Positions 4,516 through 64,000 of a DNA stretch of 64,000 bases are shown piece by piece (the stretch's first letter is position 1; each line of letters begins with the position of its first letter). The notes beneath the pieces were generated by a model, which worked only from the letters and a program-made list of their open reading frames with translations, was not told the origin of the DNA and did no database searches. A program made the position numbers and the translations under genes. The stretch is from Sphaerolaimus hirsutus (Eukaryota; Nematoda; Chromadorea; Monhysterida; Sphaerolaimidae): NCBI GenBank assembly GCA_964036195.1, contig OZ038454.1, positions 7,192,001-7,256,000 of the forward strand, in the 5' to 3' direction.

Positions 4516-4535
4516 TTAAGCGGCGTTTACACTGC
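4516..4535 (+). mobile_element. Harbinger-like terminus (TTA + AGCGGCGTTTACACTGC)
   Basis: TTA followed by AGCGGCGTTTACACTGC matches, in reverse complement, the end at 11421-11440, which is itself followed by TTA. Three-bp TTA duplications are typical of PIF/Harbinger elements. The sequence downstream (GTCGGCAATGG, GTGCCGACAAAA) also resembles 11040-11430. The matching right end is missing, so this copy is truncated or rearranged. It is repeated at 7540. Confidence 0.5.
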
Positions 4536-5030
4536 GAGCTGTGCCAGCAAACTTTTTTCTGTCGGCAATGGACATTTTGTCACGACAACGCACAAATTTT
4601 ACAGAAATTTTGCCTGTGCCGACAAAAAAGCCTCGTTCAACAGAAACCGAATCGACAACAAAAAAAGCCTCGTTGGAACCGAAGCAAACCGACAACCGCT
4701 GACATGTCATACAAAGTGTCAAAAGTCATGTAAAACGTCCTAAATTATGTCAAATATGCAGTAATAAAAAATTGACAATTTACAGGGCTTTTAGCATGAC
4801 TTTAGACAGTTTATTGTTCACTATCACCCACAAATGATTACACATGCTTGACTGTGGCGCCCTTGGCACCTGGCGCCACGTTTCTGAATGGTTCAATGGT
4901 GACATTGTTTCTTGCGCAAACAAATTGTCATCACAATATTGTCGTCACAGAAAACACGTTCGCAGCTTGTGACGGCAACACAACGATGAACCGAAACATT
5001 ATCGACGCGCTCAGCGTCGTTTTTGCTCAA

Positions 5031-5072
5031 TTTGTCGGTTTGGGTCTCGTTAACGAGACCCAAACCGACAAA
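5031..5072. repeat. 42-bp perfect palindrome
   Basis: Two 21-bp arms meet at GTTAAC with no spacer; the half-arm reads TTTGTCGGTTTGGGTCTCGT then TAACGAGACC and so on. The second copy is 8055-8096. It could form a cruciform or hairpin and may be the fused ends of two Harbinger-like termini, because GTCGGTTTG-like motifs recur in that element. Confidence 0.85.
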
Positions 5073-5214
5073 AACAAAATAAGACAAAAAATGCCCCACA
5101 AAGTAAAAAATAGGGTGGGCGCGCAAGGGGGACATAATAAATTTGTTTTTTAAATATAGGTAAACTCGGCAGCATAGCTGAAATCGAGGGTAGCATTTCG
5201 AGGGGGGGGGGGGG

Positions 5215-5880
5215 GTCGGCCTGCCGGCATGTGTTTATATCTCGGGAACCGCTGGGTGAAAATTGTTGATTTTTTAATATAATATGGTTTCAGGTTGGGG
5301 CTAGTTACAAGTCCGAGGAAATTTCGCTATGATGCCCCAAACCGGAGATAGAGTGGGTCGATAAAAAGATGGTCATTTGCGAAATTTTTGCGTGTAGCTC
5401 AGAACATGCAAACTTTGAACATCAATAACTCGACTATTTCTGGGCCGATTTTAGTAATTTCACTTTTAAAATGATGACAAATGCTTGGAGAGTTCATTTC
5501 TGAGGTCAAATAGGCGATACAATATTGTGTATATATCGATTTGGCCGGATTTCGAAATGCGAAATTTACGGGAAAATTTTCTTGTTGAACATGCTATCGT
5601 ATACTCCTGATCGAAAGAAACTCAATGAAACAAAAATGAGATCGATATCTTTTTCCGATCAAAAGTTATAGCGCTTCAAACTTTTCCCTCCCATCCACAT
5701 AAATAACCACATGCATGCAACTTCAAAACTCCATATCTCAGCCATTTCTCTGCCTATTTGCACCAATGAACACTTAAAATGATCAGAATGACATGGAGAT
5801 ATCGTTTTTAGTACCAGATTATCCGTATATTTCAGCAGATTTCCCATACAAGAAATTTATGCGAACTCTTGAATTAAATT
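5215..5880. repeat. Diverged interspersed repeat (CTCAGCCATTTCTC family)
   Basis: The stretch TATCTCAGCCATTTCTCTGC with CACCAATGAACACTTAAAATG closely resembles 50330-50390 and more distantly 39520-39590. No ORF or ends were recognised. It is repeated in copy 2 at about 8239-8904. Confidence 0.5.
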
Positions 5881-22262: not shown

Positions 22263-22699
22263 TTATGCAACTTGCGGCGCTTTCATTAAAAAAGAAAAGC
22301 AGCGCCGGTTAAAAATGGAGTTCCCTGAGTGCGGCGGCCGAACGAGAGCCGGCGGACGGCTTCGACGGCTGCGACAGCGCTGCACAGTTGCCACTCGACG
22401 ACTGCCAACCGCCGGAGCCAGGAATAAGGGGGGATTTTTGCTGTTTTTGGGAGGCTTTGTGGAGTGTCGAGTCGGCCACTCTTGGCCGAGTGCCAACTTT
22501 CGGAAAAGGGCACTGAGTGTATTTTTGAAGGGGGGTTAAGCACTGCCGCCGTGTTTTGGCGACAGTTTATTATTCAAACTTACAAACCCTCCCCTTAACC
22601 CAGTCCCTTTGACTGTTGATGACGGCGGCCGTCAGAGTTGCCTGCGGAGCTGACGAAACTCCGGCCGCTCAGAGAGTTTGGTGGGAGTGGCCACCGGAA
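22263..22699. other. GC-richer stretch, no recognised gene
   Basis: Base composition is clearly less AT-rich than the surroundings. Open frames exist on both strands (longest about 100 codons at 22234-22539, +) but they are Arg/Gly-rich, with no domain I recognise. Confidence 0.4.
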
Positions 22700-22754
22700 G
22701 GGAGCGGCCCTGATAGCTCCTGAGGTCAACGTCCCTCGGAGTAGAGATGGGTCA
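22700..22754 (+). repeat. Hairpin motif, copy 1
   Basis: GGGAGCGGCCCTGATAG leads into CTCC(T)GAGG, an 8-base loop TCAACGTC, then CCTCGGAG: an 8-bp stem with one bulged T. It is followed by TAGAGATGGGTCA. Copy 2 starts 87 bp downstream. Confidence 0.7.
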
Positions 22755-23660: not shown

Positions 23661-24334
23661 TACTCAACCCAATTCAATTTTAATTACTAAGCCAGTGATT
23701 TACCAGCTGAAATGAGCCTACCCTTGGTTATTCATTCTCTGCTAACTCTGGCATAGGCCTTCTCTTCCCTCTGCATGGTGACATTTAGGTTCACAGGGGC
23801 AGGAGTGGCCACACGGAGCTGCCGGTATAGCTAAGATAGGGTGTTGTATGGGGGAACCCACCATCTGCGATGCTTACTATACGTCTGGACCTCTGTGGAC
23901 TTGTTTTAGGTGTAGTATAAGCTAAAGTAGGCCGGGACACCTATTGACTCGCTCTAGGCTTTTGTATGGGGCCCAAACGGCTGTGCTACATCGTTGTAAA
24001 CTTTGTTTGATAGTGGGCTGTGCCAAGCTGGGACATAAGTACCTAGTCTTGTTTGGTCTCTTACCAGTGTACTGTGCTGCTATCCCAACCCGTTTGGTTT
24101 AGCTTTTAGGACTCTGAGTGTTATTTAGTCATTTTTATATTAGTGTTTTGATTTGGAAAGTTGAAAGGTAAATTGGAAATATTCAAATACTTGGGAAACT
24201 TTTAATTGCAACGTTATTCAAGAAATCCAACTAGTGTAATTCAAGCTTACTCCGGTACAACTAATACTCTACTTAATCTATTGGCTCATTCCAGCTAGTG
24301 GATCTTAATTACTTCTAATCTAATTTGTGAAATT

Positions 24335-24856
24335 GTGATGGAAGTTGATTTTGTTTGTTTGCATTCGAATGAGGTCAAATTGTCGGTTCTTGAGGCGTGG
24401 GCTAGTCTTGTTTCCGTTTCTGAAAGTGCGCCAGTTTTAGAGGGTTTTTGGGATGTTGATCATTTGGAACCGGGCCCTGTTTTTGATAGTTTGCCAAATA
24501 GTGATTTTGAATCTGAGTCGGAATTGTTTCACATCTGGCAAAGGGCCACGTATGCGGAAAAGGTTCAAGGCGCCGATGATTTTGTTATTGATTCTGTTTT
24601 GTCCACTGGTGAAATAATTAGTGATGCTTCCCAGCAGTGGTTGCTTGATCACTTGATCATGGAGCCAGCTTTTATTGAACCTGGAATTTGTGGCGTTTTC
24701 GAGAAAACTGCTGAAAGGTTGAAGAAAGTTGTCCAGCCCAGGAACCTTTGGTATTTGGTAGGTAAGAAGGGGAAATTACAGCCACACATAATTAGCCGCA
24801 GGCTTTTGCGTTTTGCGCGTCCGGACTTTGTTAGCTGTGGCAACCAAGTAGACTGA
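24335..24856 (+). CDS. Unrecognised protein, 173 codons, possibly first part of a broken ORF
   Basis: I do not recognise this protein. The frame opens at two consecutive ATG codons (24338 is the second) after an AT-rich leader. The product is acidic in its first half (E/D/S-rich, with several Trp) and basic near the end (RRLLRFARP). The stop at 24854-24856 lies at the left edge of hairpin copy 3, and the next ORF resumes in the same frame 54 bases on. A 60-base GT-AG segment (24848-24907) spans both intervening in-frame stops, so either a tiny intron or an insertion of the hairpin motif would explain the break. The setting (promoter upstream, cysteine-rich second half) is compatible with a gag-like gene of an old retroelement, but that is speculative. 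Confidence 0.4.
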   Translation: MMEVDFVCLHSNEVKLSVLEAWASLVSVSESAPVLEGFWDVDHLEPGPVFDSLPNSDFESESELFHIWQRATYAEKVQGADDFVIDSVLSTGEIISDASQQWLLDHLIMEPAFIEPGICGVFEKTAERLKKVVQPRNLWYLVGKKGKLQPHIISRRLLRFARPDFVSCGNQVD

Positions 24857-24895
24857 AAAGCTCAGAGGCCAACATCCCTCTGAGTAGCTAGGTCA
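24853..24895 (+). repeat. Hairpin motif, copy 3, at the ORF break
   Basis: CTGAAAAG, then CTCAGAGG, loop CCAACATC, then CCTCTGAG and TAGCTAGGTCA. Relative to copies 1 and 2 the stem has changed on both sides so that it still pairs fully, and the flanking TGA..AG and TAG..GGTCA are kept. Paired changes suggest selection on the RNA or DNA fold. Confidence 0.6.
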
Positions 24896-24907
24896 AAAGG
24901 CACCAAG

Positions 24908-25216
24908 CTAGTGAAGTTTGGCAGACAGGTCTCCCGCGCACGCGCCAAGCGTAAGGCTTGTAAGTTGCATAATGTGGTTGTTGAGCGTCCGGTGGACAGT
25001 ATGTCGCTTGTTGAATTGTCAAAGTTGTGCGATTATTTTGTGGGCGTGTTGCCATCGTTTGTTGTTCCCCGTGTGCAGGAGGTAACTAAGTCCCCTGTTA
25101 GGTGTTGTAGATTTGGTGTAATTGTGCAGGATGGGCTGCATGGGCGCATTGTTGAAAGTTCTGACGGGTATGGACATTGCCCAAGGTGTTGCTATTTGTC
25201 CCATGAGAAGAACTGA
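24908..25216 (+). pseudogene. In-frame continuation of the unknown ORF, Cys-rich C-terminus
   Basis: About 100 codons in the same frame as 24335-24856, with no ATG near its start, so it is unlikely to be translated alone unless joined upstream. It begins basic (SRARAKRKACK) and ends with cysteines: SPVRCCRFG and GHCPRCCYLSHEKN. The CPRC..H arrangement hints at a degenerate zinc-binding motif but does not complete a CCHC knuckle. Sequence to about 25355 ends in ACCGGGGGGTATATTGTA, a purine-rich boundary followed by an AT-rich flank, which could mark the end of the element. Confidence 0.35.
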
Positions 25217-26084: not shown

Positions 26085-26125
26085 GGGGCCAGTTCCGCAA
26101 GTGACAAAGTACTTTACTCTCAACA
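26085..26125 (+). mobile_element. End of the MITE family that forms globin intron 1
   Basis: GGGGCCAGTTCCGCAAGTG matches the left terminus of the element at 45134-45289 (17 of 18 bases from GGCCAG). The following ACAAAGTACTTTACTCTC is the expected AT-rich arm. The GCGCC-rich element at about 26126-26424 interrupts it, and TTAACTTTACTTTTACCC after 26424 looks like the remaining arm. Confidence 0.6.
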
Positions 26126-26424
26126 AATGATGTAAAAAGCGCCAAGAATTTTGCCGCCAAGCTCCAAAAGCGCCAGGGCGCTTTTACGACCTCTAGCACC
26201 GAGCGCCAATGGCGCCAGAGCAAAATGGCGCCAAGCGCCAGAAGCGCCATGGCATGGCGCTTTTTGCTTTGGCGCCATCGTCAAGCGCCAGCGCCAGGCA
26301 TTTTTTCCTGTCGCTGGGTTAAAAAAAGCCAGGCGCCAAAAGCGCCATGGCGCTTTTCGTGGGCATGGCGCCACAGCAAGTGAGCGCGAAGCGCCAAAAG
26401 CGCCACGGCGCTTTTACAGCACTT
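26126..26424. mobile_element. hAT-like GCGCC-repeat element
   Basis: It opens ATGATGTAAAAAGCGCC and closes GGCGCTTTTACAGCA. The body is almost wholly GCGCCA/TGGCGC repeats. Its design mirrors the GGTGCC element at 9776-10696, and a shorter relative lies in globin intron 2 (45366-45542). Confidence 0.6.
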
Positions 26425-26990
26425 CTCTTAACTTTACTTTTACCCTTTTATTTATTGTATTCTCCGTCAACCACCGGGGTGTAACGATGGCAAACCCTCA
26501 AAAAAAAGTATTTAAATTTTTAAGTGTTTTTTCCTAAATTAATTTTCGAATTTTCGAATTTTTCCTGAAATTAATTTTCGAATTTCGAATTTAATTTTCG
26601 AATTTTCGAATTTTCGAATCTTTTTTGGCAATTTTAGAATTTTTTTTGGCTATTTTTCAAATTTTGTCAAATAATTTTCGAATTTTTTTGGAAAAATATT
26701 GAATCTGAAGCTTTAAACACGATATGATTTATATCTTTGGCTGGCAGACAGCCAACTGAAAACTTGTGAAGTGATTCACCACTCCACACCATTTCATCCT
26801 GACTCCGAACCGGTTCAGTCAGCCGTAAGTTCACTGCTGACTGCAGTTATGACGTCATGATGGAGTGTTACCTCCAGAAAAATGTAGGCTGTAATGTCGC
26901 ACCAGTATAGCACACTGAGCGTACTCAGTGCATACAGTGCTAACTTCATAAAATACGGGTACTTCTCAAACCAATACTCAAAACCACTCT

Positions 26991-27182
26991 TATACTCCAG
27001 CCACATTACACCTACAATGAAATATACCATAACCCATCTGAATCAAAGAACAAACATAAAAAAAATTTCATCATATTTATCAAAGCAATTTGATTAATAT
27101 GATGAAAAAAATTTATGTTTGTTCTTTTATTCAGATGGGATATGGTAGATATCATTGTAAAGTGTAATGTCGCTGGAGTATA
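26991..27182. mobile_element. Palindromic MITE, TATACTCCAG family (192 bp)
   Basis: The inverted ends are TATACTCCAGCCACATTACA and the mirrored TGTAATGTCGCTGGAGTATA. The arms contain CCATAACCCATCTGAAT and its reverse complement, meeting at an AT-rich centre. Sister copy at 48235-48425. Confidence 0.8.
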
Positions 27183-44875: not shown

Positions 44876-46520
44876 ATGGGCAACAAAACATCCAAAAAAC
44901 GTTCAAAAAACATCCTCACTGAAGCCGAGTGCGCCTGCATCCAAAAAGCGTGGCGCGCTGTGTCCCGAGCATCCCAGTCAAACGCAGATGGTCAAATAAC
45001 ATCCTTCGGCTTGGATGTTATGTGCACACTTCTGAGCAGTAAGCCGCAATTGGCCAAAGTGTACGTGATCGACGAACACACTTGTTTGCACGATCCAGTC
45101 GCTTTGAGGCACGATATCAGAGTGCAGGACCAGGTGCCAGTTCCGCAAGTGGAGAAGTGAGATGCAGAATGGCAAGGGCGAAGTGAATTGGCAAGCAAAT
45201 TGGCAAAAGCGAAGTAACAAAAAAGAAAAAGTGATTTGCCTTCGCTTTTGCCATTTTACTTATCACTTGTCCACTTGCGAAACTGGCCCCAGGCTGCCAG
45301 GATTGACCAGTTTGTGGAGAGGACAGTGGACATGCTGGACACAAAGGAAAGGGTTGGTCACTGTTGGTGATGTAAAAGCGCCATGGTGCTGGCGCCTGGT
45401 GCTAGCGCCAAAGCAAAAAGCGCCATGGCGCTTGGCGCTATTTTGCTGTGGCGCCATTGGCGCTTGGCGCTGAAGGTCGGAAAAGCGTCATGGCGCTTTT
45501 GGCGCTTGGCGCCAAAGTTTTGGCGCTTTTTCTATCACTACCCAGGACACTACTGTGACTCTGTGTATGGTTCGGTACTCGGCGGACCGCAAAGTATTTA
45601 TGTGCAGAATCCTACTATAATTTAATGAATAAAATCTTGTGATAAATTTTGTAATTTATTATTCCACAGTAAAAACGAAATATTATGATGGAAAACTGTA
45701 TAATTTTTGGTCCATTATTCAGATGGGTTATGGTAGGTTTCCACACTAAGTGTGATGTCCTCCGAGGCTCCGAGTATACTCAAAATTTGTTACTTGTTCT
45801 CCAATTTTTTAATTACGCGTTATTCGTACTCAATGCAGGCTGCACATCTGTGTCAACGGGTTGGCAGAGTGCACTTTTACAAAGCTGTGAATTTGGACAC
45901 TGAGAATGAGAGCAGTGTGAGGGACATATTTCTGCACAAATTGCAGAAGCCGGCAGGTGAGTGAAGTGCAGCTCGGTGATGATGTGCCACACACACCATT
46001 TTTGTGTACAGCCACCACCTGTATACAGTGTTTCGTACTGTTTTGTGCAAACGGTTTGCCAAAATGGTCGAGAATTTCATAATTGTAAACAAGTGTGTTT
46101 GAATAATTCGTAAAAAGAAACAATATATTTATGATGCCAATATTTTGTGGCATTTTTGACAATTGGCATCTGGTGCCATTTTTCTGAAAGTTTTTCTTTG
46201 TGTGTTGTGTATTTTGAAGGTTCATTTTTACTGGCCTGTACCTTCATTTCACTACATTTGTTCCTTAATATTTTTTAATGCAACCTCAATTTGGCTGGTA
46301 CTTAATCTTGGTATTATAATACAATGTATTTACGCGTCTGTTCATACGATATCGCTTTTATGCATTTGTAGCGGAATGGAGTACGGTAGAAAGAGAGATG
46401 GCGCATCAGGCGTGGACAAAATTGATAGACTTCATGGTTGTGGAGATCAGAAACGGCTACATGGCAGCCATGATGGAATCGTTTTATGATCGAGACCACG
46501 CAAATGTTACCGCCATGTAA
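44876..46520 (+). CDS. Globin, four exons, probably N-myristoylated
   Basis: Exons 44876-45133, 45293-45352, 45839-45956 and 46372-46520 join in frame (phases 0, 0, 1) into 194 residues, and all three introns are GT-AG. MGNKTSKK is a myristoylation-type start as in membrane-linked globin X-like proteins. Globin landmarks: A helix LTEAECACIQKAW (residues 14-26), C-helix Pro in SSKPQ, E/EF segment ARIDQFVERTVDMLD in exon 2, proximal (F8) His in VGRVHFYKAV of exon 3, and G/H segment ending AWTKLIDFMVVEIRNGY in exon 4. By eye the CD1 Phe aligns with Tyr and the distal E7 residue with Gln, both departures from the norm, so ligand chemistry may differ. Intron positions avoid the classic B12.2 site. 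Introns hold transposons. No AATAAA lies just after the stop. Membership is well supported; the subfamily is inferred. Confidence 0.85.
45134..45289 (+). mobile_element. Palindromic MITE forming intron 1 of the globin gene
   Basis: The inverted ends GTGCCAGTTCCGCAAGTGGA and TCCACTTGCGAAACTGGCCC bracket a 156-bp element whose arms (TGGCAAAAGCGAAG and complement) pair over most of the length. CAG precedes it (45131-45133) and follows it (45290-45292). Intron 1 (45134-45292) is therefore the element plus one CAG: the donor GT is the element's first two bases and the acceptor AG comes from the duplicated CAG. The same terminus occurs at 26085 and, inverted, at 28905. Confidence 0.75.
45366..45542. 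mobile_element. GCGCC-repeat hAT-like element in globin intron 2
   Basis: It opens TGGTGATGTAAAAGCGCC and closes GGCGCTTTTTCTATCACTA. The body is TGGCGCTT repeats as at 26126-26424. No clean target duplication. It fills most of the first half of intron 2. Confidence 0.6.
45575..45779. mobile_element. TACTCGGCGGACCGC MITE in globin intron 2
   Basis: GTACTCGGCGGACCGCAAAG at the left, CTCCGAGTATAC at the right. The interior matches 344-536. With the GCGCC element it accounts for most of the 486-bp intron. Confidence 0.65.
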
Positions 46521-51924: not shown

Positions 51925-53221
51925 TGTGCTGACCGTGGCAAAATGGATGGATAAAGAAATACAGAGAATTGATAATTAGGCTCATATTCGCATATTTACT
52001 TATTTGCACTATTTTACCTTTCATGCACTATATTTATTTACCACGCAAAATATCAAATTATATTTCTTGCACTATATTATTTATCCATGGAGAATATTTA
52101 ATTAGGAAAGTGTTTCATGAGTAATGGATATGTTTATGTGAAATATTTAGGTTAAAAAGTCAAATAAGTTATTATTAGGTGTATTAATATGAAATTAGGC
52201 TCATTCAACTCGCCATAATTTTCTGATCATTATTATATATACATTTACATGGTTTACTTGTAAGTTGGGAAAGTCAAAACTTGTAAATATTTACGTGCTG
52301 CGTAATTATCTAGGCTAGCGTCCTAATAGAGAAATGGTGCCCTGTGTGTAACTAGCATTTACTGTACAAAGCCCTTCGCATAGGCATAATTGTCATAACC
52401 TCGCTCACAACTATTTATATTTACTTAATAATTATAATACCCCGCTCAATCGAATATATTATAAACTCTGCTCAATTACAATACCCATTTACCTCAAATA
52501 AGTCCCAATTTGCTAGACTATTCAACATACGTTTCCAGGAAGTGATTATTATTATCATGTTGAATATACCTTATTCTATTCACGTCATTAGGAACATTTG
52601 CACTACTATTTACAGTTTCAAACCCTAATTTATTAGTTCCAATGTGCGTCAATGTTTTCTGACAAATTGAAGCAAATTAGTAAATCGGCCGAGTTTGCCG
52701 ACTTCGCGCCTCAAGATTAATAGTTTTTCCATTAGCCCAATTTGTACCTGGTATTTCTTTACCATAATTATTTGAATGTATGCACGCGCGGTATAAGGCA
52801 ACTGTTTCGGCTAGATGTGTTTATTTGTTGCATTCATGTCTTATTTGTGCATTTGTATTAGGAAATTACTGTAGCTGTTTTTCTATACGTGATTTCCGTG
52901 TCTTAGCTACTTTGAGAGTTTTTACTTCAGTCTGCGGACCCCAAGCTACTGAACGAAAATAAGCTAGCGATAGAAACTTCGACTAGGAAGCTCGCTAGGA
53001 TTTGCGCTTTGTAACACGCTGTATCTGATCGAAATAAAGTACCTGAAACAATTCGAACCCCCTTTTCAACACACAACTACGAAATAAACTCAACTTGGCT
53101 GTCGACAAGTGGACGTTCGGCAACAACGGGAAATCAACCACTCTAAAGGCCGTTTCTCACTACGGTCTTGGAGCTGCTGGATTCGGTGGTAGAAGACGCT
53201 GATTTCGGTGGCTTCAACACA
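51925..53221 (+). repeat. 5' LTR of the BEL/Pao retrotransposon (1,297 bp)
   Basis: It starts TGTGCTGACC and ends TTCAACACA, TG...CA as usual for LTRs, immediately followed by the primer site. The start is fixed by the 3' LTR at 63194 (constant offset 11,269). TATAAG at 52792-52797 is a likely promoter. AATAAA at 53033-53038 and again at 53083-53088 are likely poly(A) signals, placing the R region roughly between 52820 and 53110. The LTR is AT-rich, unlike the internal region. Confidence 0.9.
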
Positions 53222-53239
53222 TGGCGCAGCGAGCAGGGT
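53222..53239 (+). promoter_or_regulatory. Primer-binding site for tRNA-Ser
   Basis: TGGCGCAGCGAGCAGGGT is complementary over 18 bases to the 3' end of the animal tRNA-Ser(UGA) type, including CCA, as I recall that tRNA. It begins directly after the LTR. Confidence 0.8.
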
Positions 53240-54448
53240 GATTGCATGACATTGTGCTATCACCAAGCCGGAGCGGACATTGTGCGGCAGTTGGCAGAAC
53301 TTCAAAAGTCCTGCTGAACATCAATTGGCCTTGGCTGAGCGTTGGCTGTTGATTTGCAGACAGCATTGTGCCAAAGTCACGGCACTCCTGTCTACATCCT
53401 GGGAGCGGTTCTATGCTCACGCGCGGAGGACACTGGAGTTCTGACAAGCCTGTCAGGATTTCAGGCAGCTTTCACCAGTGTTCTGGCAAGGTGCTAGACG
53501 CTGGGCGGCACCGGCATTTGACAAGGAGTCATTGTCGGACGGTGGTCAAACTTTCGCTGGACGCTCCTGGATATCTGGACACCAGTGACCGCTCGCACGT
53601 CCTTCCTATGCCAAGGGAGGGTGACCTGACGGAGACAGGATCGCCACAAAGCCACGCTAGTCAAAGGGCTGTTTTTGGGCATTCGCGGAGGTCCCTCGCT
53701 CCACTGGGTAAGAGTGGACTCATACCTCGGAAGTGCAAAAGTAGGGGTATCAGTGTACAAAGGGCTGTAGCTGACAGAGGGCTGTAGCTGACAGAGAGTG
53801 GATTTGAAAACCAAGTATTAGGATACTTGGTAGCGTGTAGGGGCTTTGCGGAGCTCCCATCAAATATACACGCTGTGCCTGCTCGGTACCATCAGATCAG
53901 ACAGCACAAAAGTGCCAGAAAACTGCATTGCACAGGCGCAATTGCAGAGCAGTGTAAAGAAACACTGCCCAGAATCAGAAAGTGCACCAGAGTGCACAGA
54001 AACATGTCACGGGCGACACGGCAAGCGCAGCACTGCGCACAGCGGCACAGGAGCCGCTCAGGAAAGCAAGTGGCCGGCGTGGTCACGGGGCACACAGGCG
54101 TGCCAGAAAGAGCGCCAGAGCGCTCAGAAAGAGTGTGTACGGACCCTCTTTGGGCGCACACTGCTGGGCAAATAAATTGTTTATTGTCCAGGTGGATTTG
54201 ACCGGTGTGTTGAAGTCAACGCGTGTAAACAATCACGTCAGGGGCTTTAGGAACACACCTGGTGCCAGTGCAGTAAAGGTCAACGCGTGAGAACACGTCA
54301 GGGGCCTGTAGGACTGCATTGGTATTGTGCGTGGCACAACAAATCCGTGGTGCACAGAGCACTGCACAGAAAGACACAGAGAAGCGTCACAAGCGTCACA
54401 GGCGACGCACTATAAAGAGAAACAGTGAAGGAAAATTCATCAGCAAAA
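53240..54448 (+). other. Leader of the BEL element
   Basis: About 1.2 kb between primer site and polyprotein start, with less AT than the LTR. It has a 17-bp unit duplicated in tandem at 53763-53796 (GGCTGTAGCTGACAGAG) and a GTCAACGCGTG...CACGTCAGGGG module at about 54215 and 54279. Open frames on both strands overlap but none resembles a known protein. Packaging or translation signals may lie here. Confidence 0.55.
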
Positions 54449-57400
54449 ATGGTTTCGCCAACAGGTCACATCAGAAAGACCCTGGGGCCAGCAAAGCACA
54501 GGGTGGAAAGCAGATTGGCAAGAGAATTTGCCAAATATGACCTGGAGCTATTTGCGGAAGCATCAAAGGAAGATAAGAGAACAGAGATGAGAAGAGTGAT
54601 TGCAACTATCAAACAGGAGGGTGCAAAATTGGAAAGTGCAATGACTGCAGTGAGAACTCAATTTGACGCATGGAGGGACATCGTCAAGGACATTGACGAA
54701 CCCGACCAGTTGGAACAAGAACAGAAGATATACCAAGACTCATATGAGGAATATGCAAATATGTCAGACTTGGTGACACAGAAAATGGCAGCCATGAATG
54801 TATACATCGAAGAGTTGCAAGACATGATCCAGCAACAGAGCGGAAATACCATGTATGAAGTCAATACAGCATTCATACAGCAGATGGCTGCACAGATGGC
54901 TCTGACAGCTCAGGGAGCTGCTCCGGGAGCCAGTTCAACCAATGCAACCACAGCAAAGAGCGTCAAATTGCAGAAACTGGAAGTTGAACAGTTTACTGGG
55001 GAAATTGTCAAATTTCGATCATGGTGGCAAATGTTCGAATCCCACATTCACAATCGGACAGATTTGGAGGACATTTCCAAGTTTTCATACTTGAGGAGCT
55101 TGCTGAAAGGCTCAGCATTTGGCATGATCAGTGGATTGAGTGTGACCGCAGAGAATTATGCACCCGCAATTGCAATGCTCAAGAAGAGATATGACCAGCC
55201 AGTTGTGGTCAGAAACACGCTGATGAGTAATATCATGAAGTTGCGACAGGCCAGGAATACCTGTCAGGATATGAGAATTTTGTTTGATGCAATTGAAAGG
55301 CTGCTCCAGCAGTTGGAGTCACTGGGTGAATCAGTGGAACATCCAATGCTGTTGAGCCAGCTGCAACAGAAAGTGCCACCCGAGGTTCTCAGAGAAATCC
55401 AGAAGGAACAGGGAACTGAGGAAGCCTTGACGGTGGAAAATTTCAGAAAGCTGTTTGGCAAGCAGCTAGCGCTCAGTGAGGCTGTACAGCACGCACAGCA
55501 AACTGAGGCACCAGTTCAGCAATCGCGCCAAGGGTTTGGGAATAATCCCCGCGCACAGCAATTCAATAATCGGTTTCAAGGCAATGGGAACCGATTCAGA
55601 GGGCCAGAGAACCCAAGGACCAGCACAGGGAGCATGTCTGTGATCCAGAATGGACAGAGTGCACCACAGGCTGGATTCATGGATCCTGGGAGGCCGTGTG
55701 TGTTCTGCAATGACACACAGCAATTACACTTTAATGATAAGTGTCCAAAGTTCAAAACTGCCAGAGAAAGGAGAGTGATTTTGTCAAAGGCAGAGCGATG
55801 CCTGAGATGCCTGCAGAAAGGGCATTACATGAATCAATGTCAATTTACGAGAAGTTGCTTCTATTGCAAGTCCAATAGGCACCACACTGCGGTGTGCCCA
55901 GAGAAATTTGGTGACAATGGCAATGGAAACGCTGGACGGCAAATTCCAGCATTCAGACCGAATGGTCAACAGAATGGCCAGCAAGCAGCAAACAATGGCA
56001 GAAAGTCTGTGCCGACAGCCGGTCGACCAGCACAGAGCCAACAGAGAAAGGCCACAGTGAATTGTGTCACTGTGGAAGAAGCTGGACCAGAAATGGTAGA
56101 GACAGAAACCATATCCAGCACAGTGGTTACAGAACCAAATACAAAGCAACAGAATACGTCAGTAAACCTGTCAGTAAACAGGAACATGTCAATGTTGATG
56201 ACAGCCAGAACCGTGATTGAGGCTTCAGAAATGGATACAGAGATGGAGCCTGAACAGCCACCACTACAGATTCAAGCGTTCCTGGACACAGGATCCCAGG
56301 GAACGTACATGTCAGAGAAAGTGGCCAAGAAACTCAATTTGAAGAGTACAGGTGAACACCACATCCAGGTGTACACATTCGGAAATGAAAAACCGCACTA
56401 TAAAGTCGTACAGCAAGTGGAATTCAGAATGCGGCTCAGAAATGGCCAGAAAGTTGATATGGTGGCTGATGTGGTCCCGACGTTGACCACAGAACAAGTC
56501 AAAGTGCCTGTGTCAGAACAGGACGAAAAGTACCTGCAGAAGTACTTCCCGGATGAAAGTTACTTTGCAGACAGAATTCCCAAGGAAAAAGGGACAGAGT
56601 GCAAGTTCAAGCCAGACATTATAGTAGGCTTGAATTATTTCTGGGACTTGATGTCCAGAAACACCAGCACCACCAGACTTCCGTCAGGATTGTATGTCAT
56701 TCCATCAGAATTGGGATTGCTGATGGGAGGTGGGCAGCTGACGAGCAACAGAAATCAATGGACCACGGATGGCGCATATCCGGTGGTGGTCAACACAATT
56801 GTGCATCAAATTCAGAGAGAAAAGTGGTACGAGGAAGCACCGTTGTCAATTGCTCCTGTACCAAATGTCAAAGATATGGATAGACTGGATACCATTGGCA
56901 TAATGGACCAGCCAGACCTCGTCGAGGATGATGAGGCCATCAAACAATTCAATGAGAGTGTACAGAGAAACCCAGATGGACGGTACTCTGTAAAGTTCAT
57001 GTACAAGCCGAATTTGCATGAACTCCCAGACAACAAAGCAATGGCGTTCAAGAGGTTCAGGTACCTCACCAACAGGCTCAAAAGAGACCCAGAGTTACTG
57101 GAGAAAATTCAGGCAATCATGAAAGCACAAGAGGAGCAAGGAGTAATTGAGAAAGTCCAAGAGGATATTATGGATGGTAGAAAGTTCCATATATTGCCTC
57201 ATCAACCAGTGATAACGCCAGAGAAAACTACCACAAAGGTCAGAGAGGTATATGATGCCTCAGCAAAACCGCCAGGCATGCCAAGCTTGAATGAGTGCAT
57301 GTATCGCGGTCCAGTGATACTACCACAGCTGGTAGGGATGCTGATGCGATTCCGGTTGCATGGAATCGCCCTGGTCGCAGACATAGAGAAAGCGTTTCTG

Positions 57401-60400
57401 CAGATTAGTCTGCAGGACAGTGACAGAGATGTGACAAGATTTCTGTGGTACAAGGATCCCACGAAACCATCCATGGAGGACAACATTCAGATTTACAGAT
57501 TTGCCAGAGTACCATTTGGTATAATCTGCAGCCCAGCGCTGCTGGCGCTGACAGTCAGATACCACCTGAATCAAGCTGGCACAGAAAATGCAAAATTGAT
57601 CGATGAAAATCTGTATGTGGATAATTTGATCCTCAGTGTGGATACAGAGCAGAAAGCAATCGAATTGTACCAGGAATCCAAAGTGCTGTTCACAGAGGCA
57701 CAGATGAATCTGAGAGAATGGAACAGCAACAATAAGAGCTTTACTTGGCAATTGGCAGAGTCAGATGTAGCCAAGGAAATTGTCACAACAGTCCTAGGAA
57801 TGAAATGGGACACAGAGAGCGACCAGATGTGGCTGAAAACGCCAAAGACAGTTCAGCAATCACAGTTATCAGAAACTGACCAGAAAATCAAACTTCCCAC
57901 GAAAAGGACAGTTGCAAAGGTGACTGCGGGATGTTTTGATCCAATGGGACTCGTTAGTCCTGTCCTACTGCCAGCAAAGAGATTTTTGCAAACGTTATGG
58001 CATTCAGGACCAAGTGCCAAAGAGTGGGATTCACCCCTGTCTGAGGAACAGACAGCAATTTGGCAGCAATTAGAGATGGAATTGCTTAAGGTTGGACAGA
58101 TCAAGTTCAACAGAAATCTGAATTATCAGAGTGGTGCAGATGCACAACTGCACATCTTCGTCGATGCCTCAGCAATGGCATACAGCGCAGCGGCATACAT
58201 ATGCCAGAAAACAGAAAATGACAGCGGCACGTCAAGCCTGCTGTACTCCAGATTGAGACTAGCTCCAAAGAAACCAGAAGTGACAATTCCACGGCTGGAA
58301 TTGTTAGCGATGTTGATCGGCAGCAGAATGTCAAAGTTTATTCACAAAGAGCTCAAGGACGTCAAATTCAGTCAAACAGTTGTATGGTCAGATTCAACCT
58401 GTTGTCTGAAGTGGCTAACAACAGCGAAGCCACTGGCATGTTTTGTCAAGAACAGATTGGATGAAATCAGGAAAATTCAGAGTGAGACAGAGAACATGCA
58501 CATCAGACACATAGCAGGACTGGAGAACCCAGCTGACATGGCCACAAGAGGCATGAATATGTCAGAGTTGGAAGGCAGTAACCTGTGGTGGAAAGGGCCA
58601 GAATGGCTAATGACTGGAGAGTGGCCAGAGCCGAAAGTGGAGCCAGTCACGCCAGAAGTAATGGCAGAAATCAAGAGAGAAGAGCTCAAGTTCCCAAAAG
58701 CCAGTCCAATTTACCTGGGCGCCACACAGCAAGTGGTCAGGGACCCAGATGCCAGCAATGTGCAAGCTGATGAAAGCAAGCAAAGCAACCCATTGGGAAT
58801 TGAGATTCAGAGATTCTCATCACTGACAAAGTTACTGGATGCAACAGTATACGTGATGAGATTTGTGCGACAGATGCACAAAAAGCGCAGCAAAAATGAC
58901 AGTCAGAATGGATTGTCAGAAATCATGAAAAGTATCTGTGGTACAATGAAACCACAGGGAATTATCAGTATTGAAGAGAGAGAGAGTGCGTGGAAATATT
59001 GGATCAAAGTGACGCAACAGAATCATTACAAAGAAGTGGCAAAGATTCTGGCAACAGGCCACAGCAGAGGCAGCCAGAATGGCAAGAAGACAGCTGCAGA
59101 CCAGCAGTTGATCAAATGGCTCAATGTGCAAATGCATCAGGATGGAATCCTGAAGTGCCACGGCAGAATGGAGCATACAGACCCGCAGGAGGTCACAGTG
59201 CCACTCATACTGTTGCCAGCAACGGCTACAGTGACTCAGCTGATCGTCAGAGACCAGCATGAGAAGTTAATGCACGCAGGAGTGCAACATACATTGGCAG
59301 CGATCAGACAAAAGTACTGGATTACACAGGGCAGACGGGTGATCTACAATGTGACGAGAACCTGCCCAACCTGTAAGAAATTGGGAGCGAAGCCGTACCA
59401 GCTTCCACCAATGCCAGATTTACCGGAAACTAGAGTTCAGAGAGCCAGACCGTTCCAGTATACGGGCTTGGATTATTTGGGACCAGTTTGGTACAAAGTG
59501 GACAAAGATCACAGGAAAATGTGGATCTGTTTGTTCACATGCATGGTGACACGTGCAGTTCACCTAGAAAGTGTGCTAGACATGACAGCACAAGAATTCC
59601 TGAACGCAGTCAGGAGATTCATCGCCAGGCGTGGAAAGCCTGAGGCAGTGATTTCAGACAATGCGACACAATTCAAATTGACAGAGAAAGTGCTCAGCAC
59701 AAGCACTGACAAGGCCATCAATACTGGAAAGGAATGGTCAGAAATGGTCAAAAGTGGAGCAGTACAGACTTACTGCTCACAGCAACAAATCCAGTGGAAC
59801 ATGACTACTCCTATGGCACCATGGCAGGGAGGAGTCTATGAGAGAATGGTGGGCATCACCAAGAAACATTTCAAGGCAGCTGTGGGGCACAGAATGTTAA
59901 CCCTGCAAGAATTGTTAACACTTCTGCCAGAAGTCGAGGCAGTAATCAACAGCAGGCCAATCTCTTACATCTATGGTGATGTGAAGAGCCTCAGAGTGCT
60001 GACGCCGAAAGACTTCCTGACAGGGGAAGGTCAGATTGGAGCACCACAGTTTGACACAGACAAAGATGGAGAATTTGTGCCCAGAATGGATAATGCAGCG
60101 AAACTGCAGAAATATTGGGAGACAACCCAGCAAACTTTGGATAAGTTCTGGGACTTGTGGCATCAAGAGTATATCCCGAGCTTGAGGGAAAGAACTCAGG
60201 TGACGCACAAACATGGCAGATTGACAGCGACTCAAGAACCCAAAGTGAATGAAGTTGTGCTGATTTATGAAGAGAACATGCCCAGAGGTGCATGGAGGAT
60301 GGGTCGCATAGAGCAGTTAGAGCCCAGCAAAGATGGACAGATTCGCTCAGCAAAAGTCAGAACTGCCAACAGAAATGTGGTCAGCAGGCCACTCAATCAA

Positions 60401-63151
60401 TTGTATCCGCTGGAAATCAATTCAAAGACAATGGATATCCCAGAGACAGCAGTGACAGTCAAAGTAAATTTACTGGACCCAGCAATTGTCCAGAAACAGG
60501 TCAGAAATCAGAGCTCGAACAGAGACTCTGTACAAAACCCTGCTCAGAGGAACTCAGCATCGGATAGAGTCCTGAGAAGTGCAACAGGGAAAGCCACAGC
60601 AACCACCAGCAGTCTGGTGATTGGAATGCTGTGCATGGTGTTGATGCTGACAGGCATGTCAGAGTCAGCAACGCTGAAAGAAGCCGGCAAGGCTTACAGC
60701 GAAGTATTTTCTAGAACATACGTTCTAGAAACCTCGACAGTAAGGCCACCATCATTGGCAGCGCATCATGGATTGCCGCCTTTGCCTTCAGAATGGCCAC
60801 CAAAATCTGTCAGAGAAATGCAGACTTATGAGAGATTCAAGGATGCAATCAAGGACCATCCTGTGGAACAAGTGATCAGCTCACAAAGCCAGAAGTATCA
60901 GATTTGCACCAGTGGAAGACATGGACATGCGCTTACAGTTCCTGAAGAAGTGCAGTGCCATATCCCACCAAGGAATTTTGTCAAGGCAATGAAAGTTACA
61001 CTTTACGCACAGAGACAGATTCCACAGAAAGAGAAAGCATACAGATGCTACATCAGAATCAAAGAAATCATCACACACACCAGTTTCTGGGGAGCGAAAG
61101 GCATTACAGGCAATTTTGAGAAATACCAGCAAGTTGGCGTGGTAGCCTGTAACTATGCAAGAATTCACAAGATGTTCAGAGGAACACCTTTGGTGGAAAT
61201 GGAGCCCAGAGTGTGGACAACCAATCAAACCTTGAATGTGGAATATTCATGGTGTTGCCATGACAAAGAGAATGTCGTCAGTAACTTCTACATGGAAGAA
61301 GGAACCGTGGCTTCACTCGATGGAAAGACTGTAATCAGCGACTTGCAAGATTTCAGCCAGTGCAGAGCCATGATGGGACATTGCAGAGACCACAATTATG
61401 GAATCACAGTGTGGGATACAGAGAACTTCAAGCATCAATGTGCATATGAGAGAATTGGCAGATTCAAATCAGAAATATCTGGCCAGACAATTATTGTATC
61501 AAAATTGCAAGCAGCATACTCCCACAGCAACAAGACAAAGAGGCCAATTGGCTCAGAATGTGTTCCAGGAGACACATACTACACCGATCAAGGAGGTGTA
61601 TTCATCCAGTTTGACAGAAGAGAAGATGTGCCTGTGGAATGGGCAATGCCAGGAAAGATAGTGGAGGCGAGAGAGTCAACAATCAGTGGAACATTGTATG
61701 CCAGATTGGACGACAGAAACTCCAAGTTTCAGTTCCTGCAACATGTGGTCAGAGAGATGACTCAGGCACAATTTGCGATTGTATGGCATCAGTTATGTCA
61801 ACTTCGCAAGAACCAGCTGGACATGTTGACTCAGCTTTTCCGCATCGATCCAACACTGGGGATTCGAGCCATGCTGGGAAGACAGGATGTTCATGCAGAA
61901 TGGGCTGGAGAAGCAATTATGTTTTGGGAATGCAAGGAAGTGCAGCCATACATAATTTATCAAACGGGAAAAGTGGGAGAGACATGTTACAAATACACAC
62001 CAATGAGGTTGGACAAAGATGGGCCCTTGTGGTTCAAGAGCCCAGGCAGCAGAGACTTGGTAGAGAAATCACCAGAAGAGGACTGCAGCCACACCACACC
62101 GCACCTGTACAGAAATGAACATGGACAATGGAAGTCCGCACATGGAATGGTGCACGTCACAGAGACACCGATTGAAATGACATGGAAAGGACAATGGCAG
62201 GCCTTCACGTTTGATGCGCCTCACCTGTTCACCAACATTGTCAACAGAGCGACCAATTTCATGGATGTCAGAGGCCAGATTCAGAGACTACAGAATTTGG
62301 AACATGTGCAGAACCAGTTGATCGATTATACAGCAGATATGTCATTGGATCCCAGAGTGATCAGAAATTCAATAGAAGGCATTGGAGCTGGAATTGGACA
62401 GACAGCAGCAGGAATTGGCAAAGCATATGGTCATTATATATCTGGAGTGTCAAAAGGGTACACCAACTTTATGGGAGGAATGCTGAAAGGACCCTTTCAA
62501 GTGATCATCAACACAATCGCAATGCTGCTGGGAATCACAATCCTGATAGCTGGAATCGTAGCTGCAGGATACCTGTGGTACAATTGGAGAATTGCCACGG
62601 GGAAGCCAGTGATCCCACCATGTGTATACACATGCATATGGAAATGCATAGTGTGTCCATTCAAATGCATATGGCTATGCTTCAGAGCCATCAGATATAC
62701 TATCAAGAAATCAACTCAGAAAGAGACCAATTATCCACAAAGGAAAGTGCGCAAGACAGAGTTGAGACCAGCAATCAAGAGGAGAGCCAGATCCAACTCA
62801 ACACAGTCCGTCAGATTTGCCAGGAGAGCAGAAACAGAGGACAGAATGGCAAAGTCACTATCAGCATACGTTCAGCCAGATGAAAGTTCAGCTGATGAGG
62901 GACAAGTCAGAGCCAGGAACAGAGACAGTGTTCACATGCCCGATATCTGCAAATTCACCTCACGCGAATGCGCAGGAAGCGACACGGGCAACTACCTGCT
63001 TCATCATCAGGCTAGGTCGGCGTTGGCATCACCAGCAACCGGACCTGCAACTTCACGCACGCCCACGACTTCGCGCACGACCACGTTCACCACCGAGGCG
63101 ACTGTGGAAACGCCACTCATCACTTTGGCGCCCACCACCACCAGCATGTGA
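54449..63151 (+). CDS. BEL/Pao gag-pol-envelope-like polyprotein (2,900 aa)
   Basis: One uninterrupted frame; the first ATG is 54449. Gag: DUF1759-like core about 171-270, then knuckles at 417-483 (CX2CX6HX4C followed by two canonical CX2CX4HX4C). Protease DTGS at 613-616. RT: first catalytic Asp 978 (VADIEKAF), YVDN at 1056-1059, so the second Asp of the usual YxDD box is Asn. RNase H: Asp 1239, Asp 1315 and Asp 1363 (NPADMATRG). Integrase: zinc region with CPTC at 1639-1642, then Asp 1675, Asp 1737, Glu 1798; DUF5641-like tail about 1911-1990. A hydrophobic signal-like segment (about 2055-2073) opens an ectodomain of roughly 600 residues, then a Gly-rich stretch, a transmembrane helix near 2681-2712, a Cys-rich juxtamembrane run from 2725 and a basic, then Thr/Ser-rich tail. 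The pol order identifies BEL/Pao; the envelope assignment rests on layout. Confidence 0.9.
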   Translation: MVSPTGHIRKTLGPAKHRVESRLAREFAKYDLELFAEASKEDKRTEMRRVIATIKQEGAKLESAMTAVRTQFDAWRDIVKDIDEPDQLEQEQKIYQDSYEEYANMSDLVTQKMAAMNVYIEELQDMIQQQSGNTMYEVNTAFIQQMAAQMALTAQGAAPGASSTNATTAKSVKLQKLEVEQFTGEIVKFRSWWQMFESHIHNRTDLEDISKFSYLRSLLKGSAFGMISGLSVTAENYAPAIAMLKKRYDQPVVVRNTLMSNIMKLRQARNTCQDMRILFDAIERLLQQLESLGESVEHPMLLSQLQQKVPPEVLREIQKEQGTEEALTVENFRKLFGKQLALSEAVQHAQQTEAPVQQSRQGFGNNPRAQQFNNRFQGNGNRFRGPENPRTSTGSMSVIQNGQSAPQAGFMDPGRPCVFCNDTQQLHFNDKCPKFKTARERRVILSKAERCLRCLQKGHYMNQCQFTRSCFYCKSNRHHTAVCPEKFGDNGNGNAGRQIPAFRPNGQQNGQQAANNGRKSVPTAGRPAQSQQRKATVNCVTVEEAGPEMVETETISSTVVTEPNTKQQNTSVNLSVNRNMSMLMTARTVIEASEMDTEMEPEQPPLQIQAFLDTGSQGTYMSEKVAKKLNLKSTGEHHIQVYTFGNEKPHYKVVQQVEFRMRLRNGQKVDMVADVVPTLTTEQVKVPVSEQDEKYLQKYFPDESYFADRIPKEKGTECKFKPDIIVGLNYFWDLMSRNTSTTRLPSGLYVIPSELGLLMGGGQLTSNRNQWTTDGAYPVVVNTIVHQIQREKWYEEAPLSIAPVPNVKDMDRLDTIGIMDQPDLVEDDEAIKQFNESVQRNPDGRYSVKFMYKPNLHELPDNKAMAFKRFRYLTNRLKRDPELLEKIQAIMKAQEEQGVIEKVQEDIMDGRKFHILPHQPVITPEKTTTKVREVYDASAKPPGMPSLNECMYRGPVILPQLVGMLMRFRLHGIALVADIEKAFLQISLQDSDRDVTRFLWYKDPTKPSMEDNIQIYRFARVPFGIICSPALLALTVRYHLNQAGTENAKLIDENLYVDNLILSVDTEQKAIELYQESKVLFTEAQMNLREWNSNNKSFTWQLAESDVAKEIVTTVLGMKWDTESDQMWLKTPKTVQQSQLSETDQKIKLPTKRTVAKVTAGCFDPMGLVSPVLLPAKRFLQTLWHSGPSAKEWDSPLSEEQTAIWQQLEMELLKVGQIKFNRNLNYQSGADAQLHIFVDASAMAYSAAAYICQKTENDSGTSSLLYSRLRLAPKKPEVTIPRLELLAMLIGSRMSKFIHKELKDVKFSQTVVWSDSTCCLKWLTTAKPLACFVKNRLDEIRKIQSETENMHIRHIAGLENPADMATRGMNMSELEGSNLWWKGPEWLMTGEWPEPKVEPVTPEVMAEIKREELKFPKASPIYLGATQQVVRDPDASNVQADESKQSNPLGIEIQRFSSLTKLLDATVYVMRFVRQMHKKRSKNDSQNGLSEIMKSICGTMKPQGIISIEERESAWKYWIKVTQQNHYKEVAKILATGHSRGSQNGKKTAADQQLIKWLNVQMHQDGILKCHGRMEHTDPQEVTVPLILLPATATVTQLIVRDQHEKLMHAGVQHTLAAIRQKYWITQGRRVIYNVTRTCPTCKKLGAKPYQLPPMPDLPETRVQRARPFQYTGLDYLGPVWYKVDKDHRKMWICLFTCMVTRAVHLESVLDMTAQEFLNAVRRFIARRGKPEAVISDNATQFKLTEKVLSTSTDKAINTGKEWSEMVKSGAVQTYCSQQQIQWNMTTPMAPWQGGVYERMVGITKKHFKAAVGHRMLTLQELLTLLPEVEAVINSRPISYIYGDVKSLRVLTPKDFLTGEGQIGAPQFDTDKDGEFVPRMDNAAKLQKYWETTQQTLDKFWDLWHQEYIPSLRERTQVTHKHGRLTATQEPKVNEVVLIYEENMPRGAWRMGRIEQLEPSKDGQIRSAKVRTANRNVVSRPLNQLYPLEINSKTMDIPETAVTVKVNLLDPAIVQKQVRNQSSNRDSVQNPAQRNSASDRVLRSATGKATATTSSLVIGMLCMVLMLTGMSESATLKEAGKAYSEVFSRTYVLETSTVRPPSLAAHHGLPPLPSEWPPKSVREMQTYERFKDAIKDHPVEQVISSQSQKYQICTSGRHGHALTVPEEVQCHIPPRNFVKAMKVTLYAQRQIPQKEKAYRCYIRIKEIITHTSFWGAKGITGNFEKYQQVGVVACNYARIHKMFRGTPLVEMEPRVWTTNQTLNVEYSWCCHDKENVVSNFYMEEGTVASLDGKTVISDLQDFSQCRAMMGHCRDHNYGITVWDTENFKHQCAYERIGRFKSEISGQTIIVSKLQAAYSHSNKTKRPIGSECVPGDTYYTDQGGVFIQFDRREDVPVEWAMPGKIVEARESTISGTLYARLDDRNSKFQFLQHVVREMTQAQFAIVWHQLCQLRKNQLDMLTQLFRIDPTLGIRAMLGRQDVHAEWAGEAIMFWECKEVQPYIIYQTGKVGETCYKYTPMRLDKDGPLWFKSPGSRDLVEKSPEEDCSHTTPHLYRNEHGQWKSAHGMVHVTETPIEMTWKGQWQAFTFDAPHLFTNIVNRATNFMDVRGQIQRLQNLEHVQNQLIDYTADMSLDPRVIRNSIEGIGAGIGQTAAGIGKAYGHYISGVSKGYTNFMGGMLKGPFQVIINTIAMLLGITILIAGIVAAGYLWYNWRIATGKPVIPPCVYTCIWKCIVCPFKCIWLCFRAIRYTIKKSTQKETNYPQRKVRKTELRPAIKRRARSNSTQSVRFARRAETEDRMAKSLSAYVQPDESSADEGQVRARNRDSVHMPDICKFTSRECAGSDTGNYLLHHQARSALASPATGPATSRTPTTSRTTTFTTEATVETPLITLAPTTTSM
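60613..62760 (+). other. Envelope-like module of the polyprotein
   Basis: This part lies downstream of integrase in the same frame. A signal-peptide-like core (IGMLCMVLMLTG) is followed by many paired cysteines. A segment around 61890-62100 has the spacing FWECKEVQP...GETCYKYTP...LWF, which reminds me of the C-terminal half of class III fusogens found in chuvirus-type envelopes captured by BEL elements. A GIGAGIGQTAAGIGK stretch precedes the membrane anchor, and the short cytoplasmic part begins with clustered cysteines, candidates for palmitoylation. Structure prediction would be needed to settle the class. Confidence 0.6.
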
Positions 63152-63193
63152 CGTTGCTGCAACAACGGGGTGCAGCAACTCTTCCGCCCGGAG
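63152..63193 (+). other. Region before the 3' LTR, weak polypurine tract
   Basis: Only 42 bp separate the stop codon from the LTR. The only purine runs are CGGGG and the CGGAG directly before the LTR, so the plus-strand primer is short or atypical. Confidence 0.4.
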
Positions 63194-64000
63194 TGTGCTG
63201 ACCGTGGCAAAATGGATGGATAAAGAAATACAGAGAATTGATAATTAGGCTCATATTCGCATATTTACTTATTTGCACTATTTTACCTTTCATGCACTAT
63301 ATTTATTTACCACGCAAAATATCAAATTATATTTCTTGCACTATATTATTTATCCATGGAGAATATTTAATTAGGAAAGTGTTTCATGAGTAATGGATAT
63401 GTTTATGTGAAATATTTAGGTTAAAAAGTCAAATAAGTTATTATTAGGTGTATTAATATGAAATTAGGCTCATTCAACTCGCCATAATTTTCTGATCATT
63501 ATTATATATACATTTACATGGTTTACTTGTAAGTTGGGAAAGTCAAAACTTGTAAATATTTACGTGCTGCGTAATTATCTAGGCTAGCGTCCTAATAGAG
63601 AAATGGTGCCCTGTGTGTAACTAGCATTTACTGTACAAAGCCCTTCGCATAGGCATAATTGTCATAACCTCGCTCACAACTATTTATATTTACTTAATAA
63701 TTATAATACCCCGCTCAATCGAATATATTATAAACTCTGCTCAATTACAATACCCATTTACCTCAAATAAGTCCCAATTTGCTAGACTATTCAACATACG
63801 TTTCCAGGAAGTGATTATTATTATCATGTTGAATATACCTTATTCTATTCACGTCATTAGGAACATTTGCACTACTATTTACAGTTTCAAACCCTAATTT
63901 ATTAGTTCCAATGTGCGTCAATGTTTTCTGACAAATTGAAGCAAATTAGTAAATCGGCCGAGTTTGCCGACTTCGCGCCTCAAGATTAATAGTTTTTCCA
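63194..64000 (+). repeat. 3' LTR, first 807 bp (cut by window end)
   Basis: Matches 51925-52731 with no difference that I could find. The remaining 490 bp and the right target duplication lie beyond the window; the element should end near 64490 in window coordinates. Confidence 0.9.

Follow-up and report, generated by a model that had tools for sequence, protein, structure and literature searches.

The globin gene and its first intron

This locus raises the question of where the first intron of a globin gene came from. The window (the whole stretch of Sphaerolaimus hirsutus DNA that was analysed, 64,000 nucleotides) harbours a four-exon gene with all four exons open and with GT-AG borders on every intron (Table 1). 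Intron 1 (45134-45292) is 159 bp long, lies in phase 0 and consists of a 156-bp palindromic element followed by one CAG.

Table 1. Features of the globin gene and of the element family in the window
Feature	Position	Strand	Remarks
Palindromic MITE, 5' GTGCCAG...CTGGCCC 3'	45134..45289	+	intron 1 minus 3 bases; inverted arms and genome family
Left terminal inverted arm	45134..45187	+	its initial two bases are the predicted splice donor GT
Right terminal inverted arm	45236..45289	-	inward reading GGGCCAGTTTCGC
Lone GGG-type end of a probable related family member, CTG before it	26086..26110	+	terminus match; partner end not identified
Globin exon 1	44876..45133	+	86 codons; ends with CAG, Gln at globin E7 by alignment; open frame and globin alignment
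Left CAG, putative target-site copy and final codon of exon 1	45131..45133	+	sequence; CAG/CTG flanks in other family copies
Right CAG, putative target-site copy acting as predicted splice acceptor	45290..45292	+	reading-frame, Pfam and alignment tests
Globin exon 2	45293..45352	+	20 codons
Globin intron 2	45353..45838	+	has an unrelated GCGCC-rich inverted repeat, off the splice sites
Globin exon 3	45839..45956	+	includes the proximal-His position
Globin intron 3	45957..46371	+	no inverted repeat of at least 16 nt found
Globin exon 4 including stop codon	46372..46520	+	

The gene around the element is credibly a globin gene, judging by a weak match of its predicted protein to Pfam PF00042 (E=0.0043, 18 bits, under the cut-off of 22). 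The closest solved structure is a cytoglobin with E=0.052 only; its gapless alignment begins where the E-helix region starts, crosses the intron 1 junction and reaches the proximal His, and it places the intron just after the codon for position E7, which is Gln here. The protein search returned no homologues at E<=1e-3, and exons 1 and 2 together as the query gave zero candidate homologues. None of the ten nematode globin orthologue sets in Table 4 of PMC2576238 has an intron directly after E7; this is only suggestive, because globin introns differ widely among nematodes.

Checked together with the flanks, the inverted arms span 54 nt and are 81% complementary. The fold of the element is more stable than that of its shuffles by z -8.6 as DNA and z -7.2 as RNA with flanks. 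The initial annotation had read the intron as the palindromic element plus one CAG, with CAG on both sides, the donor GT as the first dinucleotide of the element and the acceptor AG taken from the right CAG. All of this can be seen in the sequence, and arms and fold agree with it, so that the predicted intron is confirmed as a whole palindromic element with one presumed target-site CAG. The unbroken in-phase globin reading claimed for the excised form holds as well: once 45134-45292 is removed, the codon CAG is followed directly by the codon GCT.

If the intron is retained, an in-frame TGA inside the element stops the reading. Near the element there are 13 candidate GT and 19 candidate AG sites, which form 27 open in-frame pairs at least 40 nt apart, and exact excision ranks first among these 27 readings in the comparison with the cytoglobin (score 83, against 80 for the next and 51 for retention). 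In the Pfam comparison, which covered exact excision, 9 of the 26 alternatives and retention, a Globin match (below the cut-off) was obtained for exact excision only among the 11 readings. It is conceivable that the true intron 1 uses other nearby sites, for example GTGAGA at 45157 as donor and the AG at 45300 as acceptor. This pair keeps the frame and its donor, preceded by GAA, is stronger than the CAG-flanked GTGCCA of the element, which is weak past +3; the runner-up pair 45140/45319 is also little under exact excision in the cytoglobin comparison. We consider such a shift highly improbable, however: 45157/45300 scores 63 against 83, the Pfam Globin match is absent for both pairs, and in the zinc finger gene L070 described below it is exact excision that yields the 12-residue C-to-H spacing of the adjacent fingers. 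As read from the sequence, the element would carry or recruit both splice sites, and its excision would restore the reading.

Intron 2 also contains an inverted repeat, the GCGCC-rich one at 45374-45530, which lies ~20 bp inside the intron and resembles the sequence at 26128-26430.

The element family across the genome

The genome searched comprises 348.5 Mb in 762 contigs. It is that of a nematode: it holds 56 matches above the cut-off to PF01484, the cuticle collagen N-terminal domain, a family not known outside nematodes, and 14 control genomes, among which animals are not evident, hold 0.

The initial annotation had inferred a dispersed family from two further termini in the window. Of these, the one at 26086 on the plus strand is weak and probably a real end (a 20-mer match with 3 mismatches where 0 are expected, nhmmer E=0.011), while the one at 28905 is at chance level (18 13-mer matches against 18.4 expected, nhmmer E=0.06). 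The dispersed family itself is borne out by the genome rather than by these copies. A search with the element gave 1,832 first-look candidates, 40 of which were scored and proved 78-100% identical, and CAG followed by GTGCCAGTTYCGCAAGTGG with at most one mismatch occurs at 1,755 ends (871 and 884 on the two strands), against 0 and 0 for the reversed control pattern. Copies that share the terminus differ in internal sequence and length.

The 40 scored copies, the window copy among them, were surveyed with 1-kb flanks. They have 76 recognisable ends, 29 flanked by CAG and 25 by CTG (CWG in 54/76); 35 of the ends start with GTG and 25 with GGG. The consensus of 35 aligned copies starts with GTGCCAG and ends with CTGGCCC, and the two family ends read GTGCCAGTT and GGGCCAGTT; the copies in this alignment were oriented by their GTG-type end, which leaves the asymmetry of the ends as the only independent evidence. 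Since GTG is a usual family end, the donor GT is a feature of the family and no private mutation of the globin copy. For the same reason we rejected the idea that it had arisen from a GGG end by point mutation.

Divergence of the window copy from the consensus amounts to 12.3% in the 35-copy alignment and 9.2% in a smaller one, which suggests that the insertion is not very recent.

CAG before an intron and CAG at its end are the ordinary intron consensus, and a target duplication in one copy alone is therefore weak evidence; the two CAGs of the window copy may nevertheless be such a duplication. Identical CAG/CAG or CTG/CTG flanks are kept in 17 of the 35 aligned copies. Within the 40-copy set the same CWG stands on both sides in 16 copies, the opposite one in 1 and another sequence in 17; in a left-CAG sample, the 49 places with a right end have CAG as the right flank in 24 cases and CTG in 11, the remaining 14 having neither. 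A left CAG is paired with a right CTG in 11 copies, namely L075, L084, L088, L091, L094-L096, L112, L132, L133 and L136, with L094 and L095 sharing their flanks. Opposite flanks are not expected from simple target duplication and could come from exchange between copies, and "CWG-flanked" holds better for the family than "the same CWG on both sides". With these exceptions to the duplication, the family shows the features of a MITE: it is short and non-coding, has inverted ends and a putative target duplication and occurs in many dispersed copies.

Several copies in the region C2:25387611-25746527 (L078-L080, L083) have an identical left flank and represent a local segmental duplication. Outside this genome, the collection viral_contigs has the terminus in 13 stretches, each limited to the terminus only (17-21 bases) and taken as chance, and a second end in the right order is absent from all 13; genome_contigs has one match, in a bacterial contig.

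Other copies as introns

From a list of 100 places, which were the first in contig order, 70 (L067-L136) were read. The right end was missing within 430 bp at 21 of them; 20 had a right end without a following AG (in 11 of these 20 CTG follows), and 29 had an AG after it. Three of the 70 places (L068, L070 and L093) are exact introns in the coding sequence of unrelated genes; most of the 70 are not visibly within coding exons.

The element of L068 (C1:11049482) interrupts a gene for a FANCJ-type helicase, whose joined reading is ...SSAWWQ^DELGRIVLQVC... (^ marks the junction). It aligns with the FANCJ chain of 9ej9 over 61 residues without a gap across the junction (E=1.1e-5), with QDE at the junction in both proteins; the Pfam Helicase_C_2 match is confined to the right exon and does not cross it. 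The element of L070 (C1:15453479) lies within a C2H2 finger, which after exact excision reads CNYCDFQGKDQ^RYLAKHMVMKH and has a C-to-H spacing of 12 residues, as its neighbours do. The best PF13909 stretch (39-64) runs across this junction and is no longer found in a protein truncated at the element; the Pfam total is 59.8 bits for the joined protein, which has one finger more, against 35.6 for the truncated one. L093 (C3:28252547) is a phase 2 intron in a probable Q-rich protein (...QSQGVT^RNPCMSAIGDQ...), the reading being bordered by a CAG acceptor with a pyrimidine-rich tract and by a GT donor; as a Pfam match is absent, the call is based on the open frame.

Among the copies ranked by similarity, L023/L062 (C4:14132667) is, by its reading frame, a clear further case: its predicted 163-bp intron is a 159-bp element plus CCAG and joins ...FYLAKQTP^DASISWEIK.... 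L027 and L061 are probable element introns, and stay so because their joined frames have no Pfam match; Pfam gave none for the joined frames of L023, L027, L050, L061 (two frames) and L026, nor for the right exon of L034.

End-to-end identity to the consensus over aligned bases is 84.7% in L068, 93.0% in L070, 75.7% in L093, 94.2% in L023, 95.5% in L027, 92.4% in L061 and 90.8% in the window copy. The predicted introns of these different genes are thus members of a single family, and their likeness reaches as far as the predicted splice sites at either end, L093 being the weakest member.

An antisense copy of the family (L034/L066, C13:16413174; 4997-5152 in L066) splits a gene for a rhodopsin-type receptor, the joined reading of which matches 7tm_1 across the junction with 19.5 bits, under the cut-off of 30.5. 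Here too the flanking CAG would act as acceptor, whereas the donor would be a GT in exon sequence, 10 bases upstream of the element. At L064/L050 repeats lie upstream and the exon begins directly after the right CAG; these copies and L120-L122 seem to have entered introns that were already there, at the acceptor end, and were left out of the intron count, as were L110, L104 and L097, which were also examined.

The initial annotation had held that this MITE family generates introns here, possibly genome-wide, and had regarded copies that never coincide with introns as contrary evidence. Copies do coincide with introns, in three of the 70 places read and in L023, with 76-94% likeness to the consensus, which speaks for the first part of the claim. 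The genome-wide part has to be scaled down: the introns are found in unrelated genes, but exact introns make up a small share of what was read (3/70). Provided that the places on the list are representative and this fraction holds for all 1,755 ends, the genome would have ~75 exact introns (95% range 16-211).

Coding potential of the flanks

A codon model was applied to the flanks of the copies. The model is crude; part of its training set were exons adjacent to other copies, and it fails to pick up L070 and L023. In a flank-swap null with 34 copies, the window copy included, a coding score of at least 7 on both sides was found in 5 copies against 1.1 expected. With the window copy excluded, 4/32 CAG/CAG copies have a coding signal on both sides in the sense orientation and 0/32 in the antisense orientation; for the other copies the sense figure is 0/49 (10 CTG/CTG and 39 other; Fisher p=0.022), and two antisense signals, L053 and L084, were seen among these 49. 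The cases being few and the model crude, these counts only back up the evidence from domains.

They bear on a reading in which the globin gene is a broken allele or pseudogene with an exonic MITE, the GT...AG being incidental since every sense insertion at CAG looks so. The retained element does give a stop, a GTG start and CAG flanks are common enough for the GT...AG look to arise without splicing, and the 70 places read are mostly outside visible coding exons. We find this hardly credible in view of the four open globin exons with their GT-AG borders, of the coding flanks in 4/32 splice-competent copies against 0/49 in the others, and of the helicase and the zinc finger protein, which are interrupted in like manner.

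When the window was scanned with a crude codon model trained on its retrotransposon and on the globin gene, globin exon 1 scored highest outside the retrotransposon (23.3); the window thus has too few introns for a test of the family. Coding-like codon scores of 21.5 and 16.9 were also seen at 22316-22720, without an assigned gene.

Origin of the intron

Most probably (we put this at about 0.86), intron 1 arose by insertion of the MITE at a coding CAG, and the family has done likewise in unrelated genes and thus behaves as an introner family. The element, the family and its CAG/CTG flanks are direct observations, and so is the exact fit of copies to introns as judged from reading frames and domain matches. 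The order of events proposed below and the splicing of RNA at these sites are deduced from the genomic sequence.

A CWG-targeting transposase would put the non-autonomous element into an exonic CAG. Duplication of the 3-bp target would result in exon-CAG^GTGCCAG...CTGGCCC-CAG^exon, where the initial GTG of the element may supply the splice donor and the second target copy, the right CAG, the acceptor. The right arm (CTCACTTCTCCACTTGCGGAACTGGCCC in the consensus) may provide a pyrimidine-rich stretch and possibly a branch site. Splicing would then take out the element with one CAG and bring back exactly the original coding sequence. The same process is presumed for several unrelated genes and a family of well over 1,000 copies; at each site, the flanking CAGs and the identity of the element point to a gain of the intron. 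The termini of the copies are GTG...CCC and their flanks mostly CAG or CTG; a copy that enters a CAG in the sense orientation would thus supply a GT donor itself and find its acceptor in the second CAG. With a CTG target or in the antisense orientation one splice site would be lacking. Because the arms are near-palindromic, an antisense insertion may still offer an acceptor where the gene strand reads CAG, and the receptor gene of L066 fits this.

Alternatively, the MITE entered a globin intron that existed already, and the old intron sequence was later lost until the element alone was left. Globin introns turn over rapidly in nematodes according to the parts of PMC2576238 that deal with them, and the copies L064/L050 and L120-L122 do seem to lie at the 3' end of existing introns. 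At 45131-45293, by contrast, there is zero intron sequence beside the element, and the exact fit recurs at L068, L070, L093 and L023; that the old intron should time and again have been trimmed to nothing on either side is not to be expected, and we regard this history as very unlikely.

Transposase group

By analogy, the transposase would belong to a NuwaI-like group of the PHIS superfamily. The NuwaI transposons as described by Han et al. (2015, PMC4482050) have 3-bp CWG target duplications and ends that usually start with GGG; the hosts reported there are fish, a beetle, a crustacean, a mollusc and an anthozoan, with nematodes not among them. Partly resembling these, the present family has CAG/CTG flanks (54/76 ends CWG) and GGG at one end. 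Unlike them, as far as the description in PMC4482050 goes, its other end starts with GTG and its arms are long, within a near-palindrome; a further difference from NuwaI is the sizeable minority of copies whose two flanks are CAG and CTG.

The genome has at least 163 matches to the PF13359 transposase. Of these, one copy (L137) was read, and family ends are absent within 4.6 kb of it; no autonomous partner of the family was found there, and the link of the family to NuwaI and PHIS is drawn by analogy. The PF13359 (PHIS-type) matches themselves are homogeneous and probably young; many have near-identical scores and four stops within the match, as an intron would give.

We lean towards the view that the family is a NuwaI-like introner family of Nematoda and was made so by its target preference. 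CWG targeting would put many copies on the CAG that flanks introns, so that a sense insertion on CAG is plausibly born with both donor and acceptor. The CAG target rule would then be a simple reason why some transposons turn into introners.

Relation to known introners

Introners with TIRs and TSDs were reportedly described by Huff et al. in 2016. The origin of introners from DNA transposons is treated as established by Gozashti et al. (2022, PMC9860276) in the sections relevant here: some introners have inverted ends and short target duplications and make introns by insertion into exons, and in some types one of the two splice sites comes with the element and the other from the duplicated target. 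Those of Chrysochromulina carry the 5' splice site and co-opt the 3' site, with a 4-bp TSD and no TIRs (PMC9860276). The present family is likewise a non-autonomous DNA element that would make introns by exon insertion. It differs from the introners presented in that paper in its mostly CWG flanks, by which the acceptor CAG would be set by the choice of target, in its long palindromic arms and in its nematode host. The introner elements of Amoebophrya have terminal inverted repeats, direct repeats of 3-5 nt over the exon/intron borders and predicted hairpins (PMC7789003). Inverted repeats at the intron ends and short direct repeats at the borders are common to both systems; in contrast to the non-canonical introns and varied repeats given for Amoebophrya in PMC7789003, the introns here have GT-AG ends and one family terminus.

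The origin of introns is a long-standing question, and introners were reported in only two animal groups in the survey of 835 animal and land-plant genomes of PMC9860276. For nematodes, a study of intron gain from 2022 discusses possible reasons why source sequences were absent (PMC9169325, in the passage on this point), and nematode globin introns were seen to have no similarity to other genomic sequence in the corresponding part of PMC2576238. No report of nematode introners appeared in the titles and the starts of the abstracts of the papers listed in our literature search, subscription papers and preprints being outside its scope. In the section of PMC10597677 concerned, Meloidogyne graminicola, the name of a nematode, is given as an introner-bearing dothideomycete fungus, which we take as a slip of name. 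Introners as such are already known; what would be new here is a nematode introner family with an acceptor set by target specificity.

If the NuwaI-like introner reading is true, it would offer a direct source for unexplained nematode intron gains and dozens to a few hundred such introns in one genome. The family still matches its introns end to end and the contigs are large, so that the mechanism can be put to the test in this genome: the predicted splice junctions, the choice of target, any bias in orientation and the age of the copies are all measurable.

Other features of the window

RNA families and tRNAs were searched for in the 64-kb window and none was found. A BEL/Pao-type LTR retrotransposon occupies 52356-63897, with an unbroken frame of 2,911 residues (54416-63151). 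Two identical frames of 90 residues, at 52356 and 63625, fit with LTRs, and a stretch of 400 residues matches Pao-domain proteins of nematodes, cnidarians, molluscs and insects. Near-identical frames at 3496-5234 and 6520-8258, 3,024 bp apart, represent a tandem duplication of ~3 kb. A further palindrome, with 48-nt arms that are 92% complementary, is located at 27013-27159 in a region dense in nested repeats. The frame at 24299-25216 (MEVDFVCLHSNEVKLSVLEAW...) resembles by eye the frame beside L072 that lies between two copies of the family, and this is possibly the gene of another mobile element.
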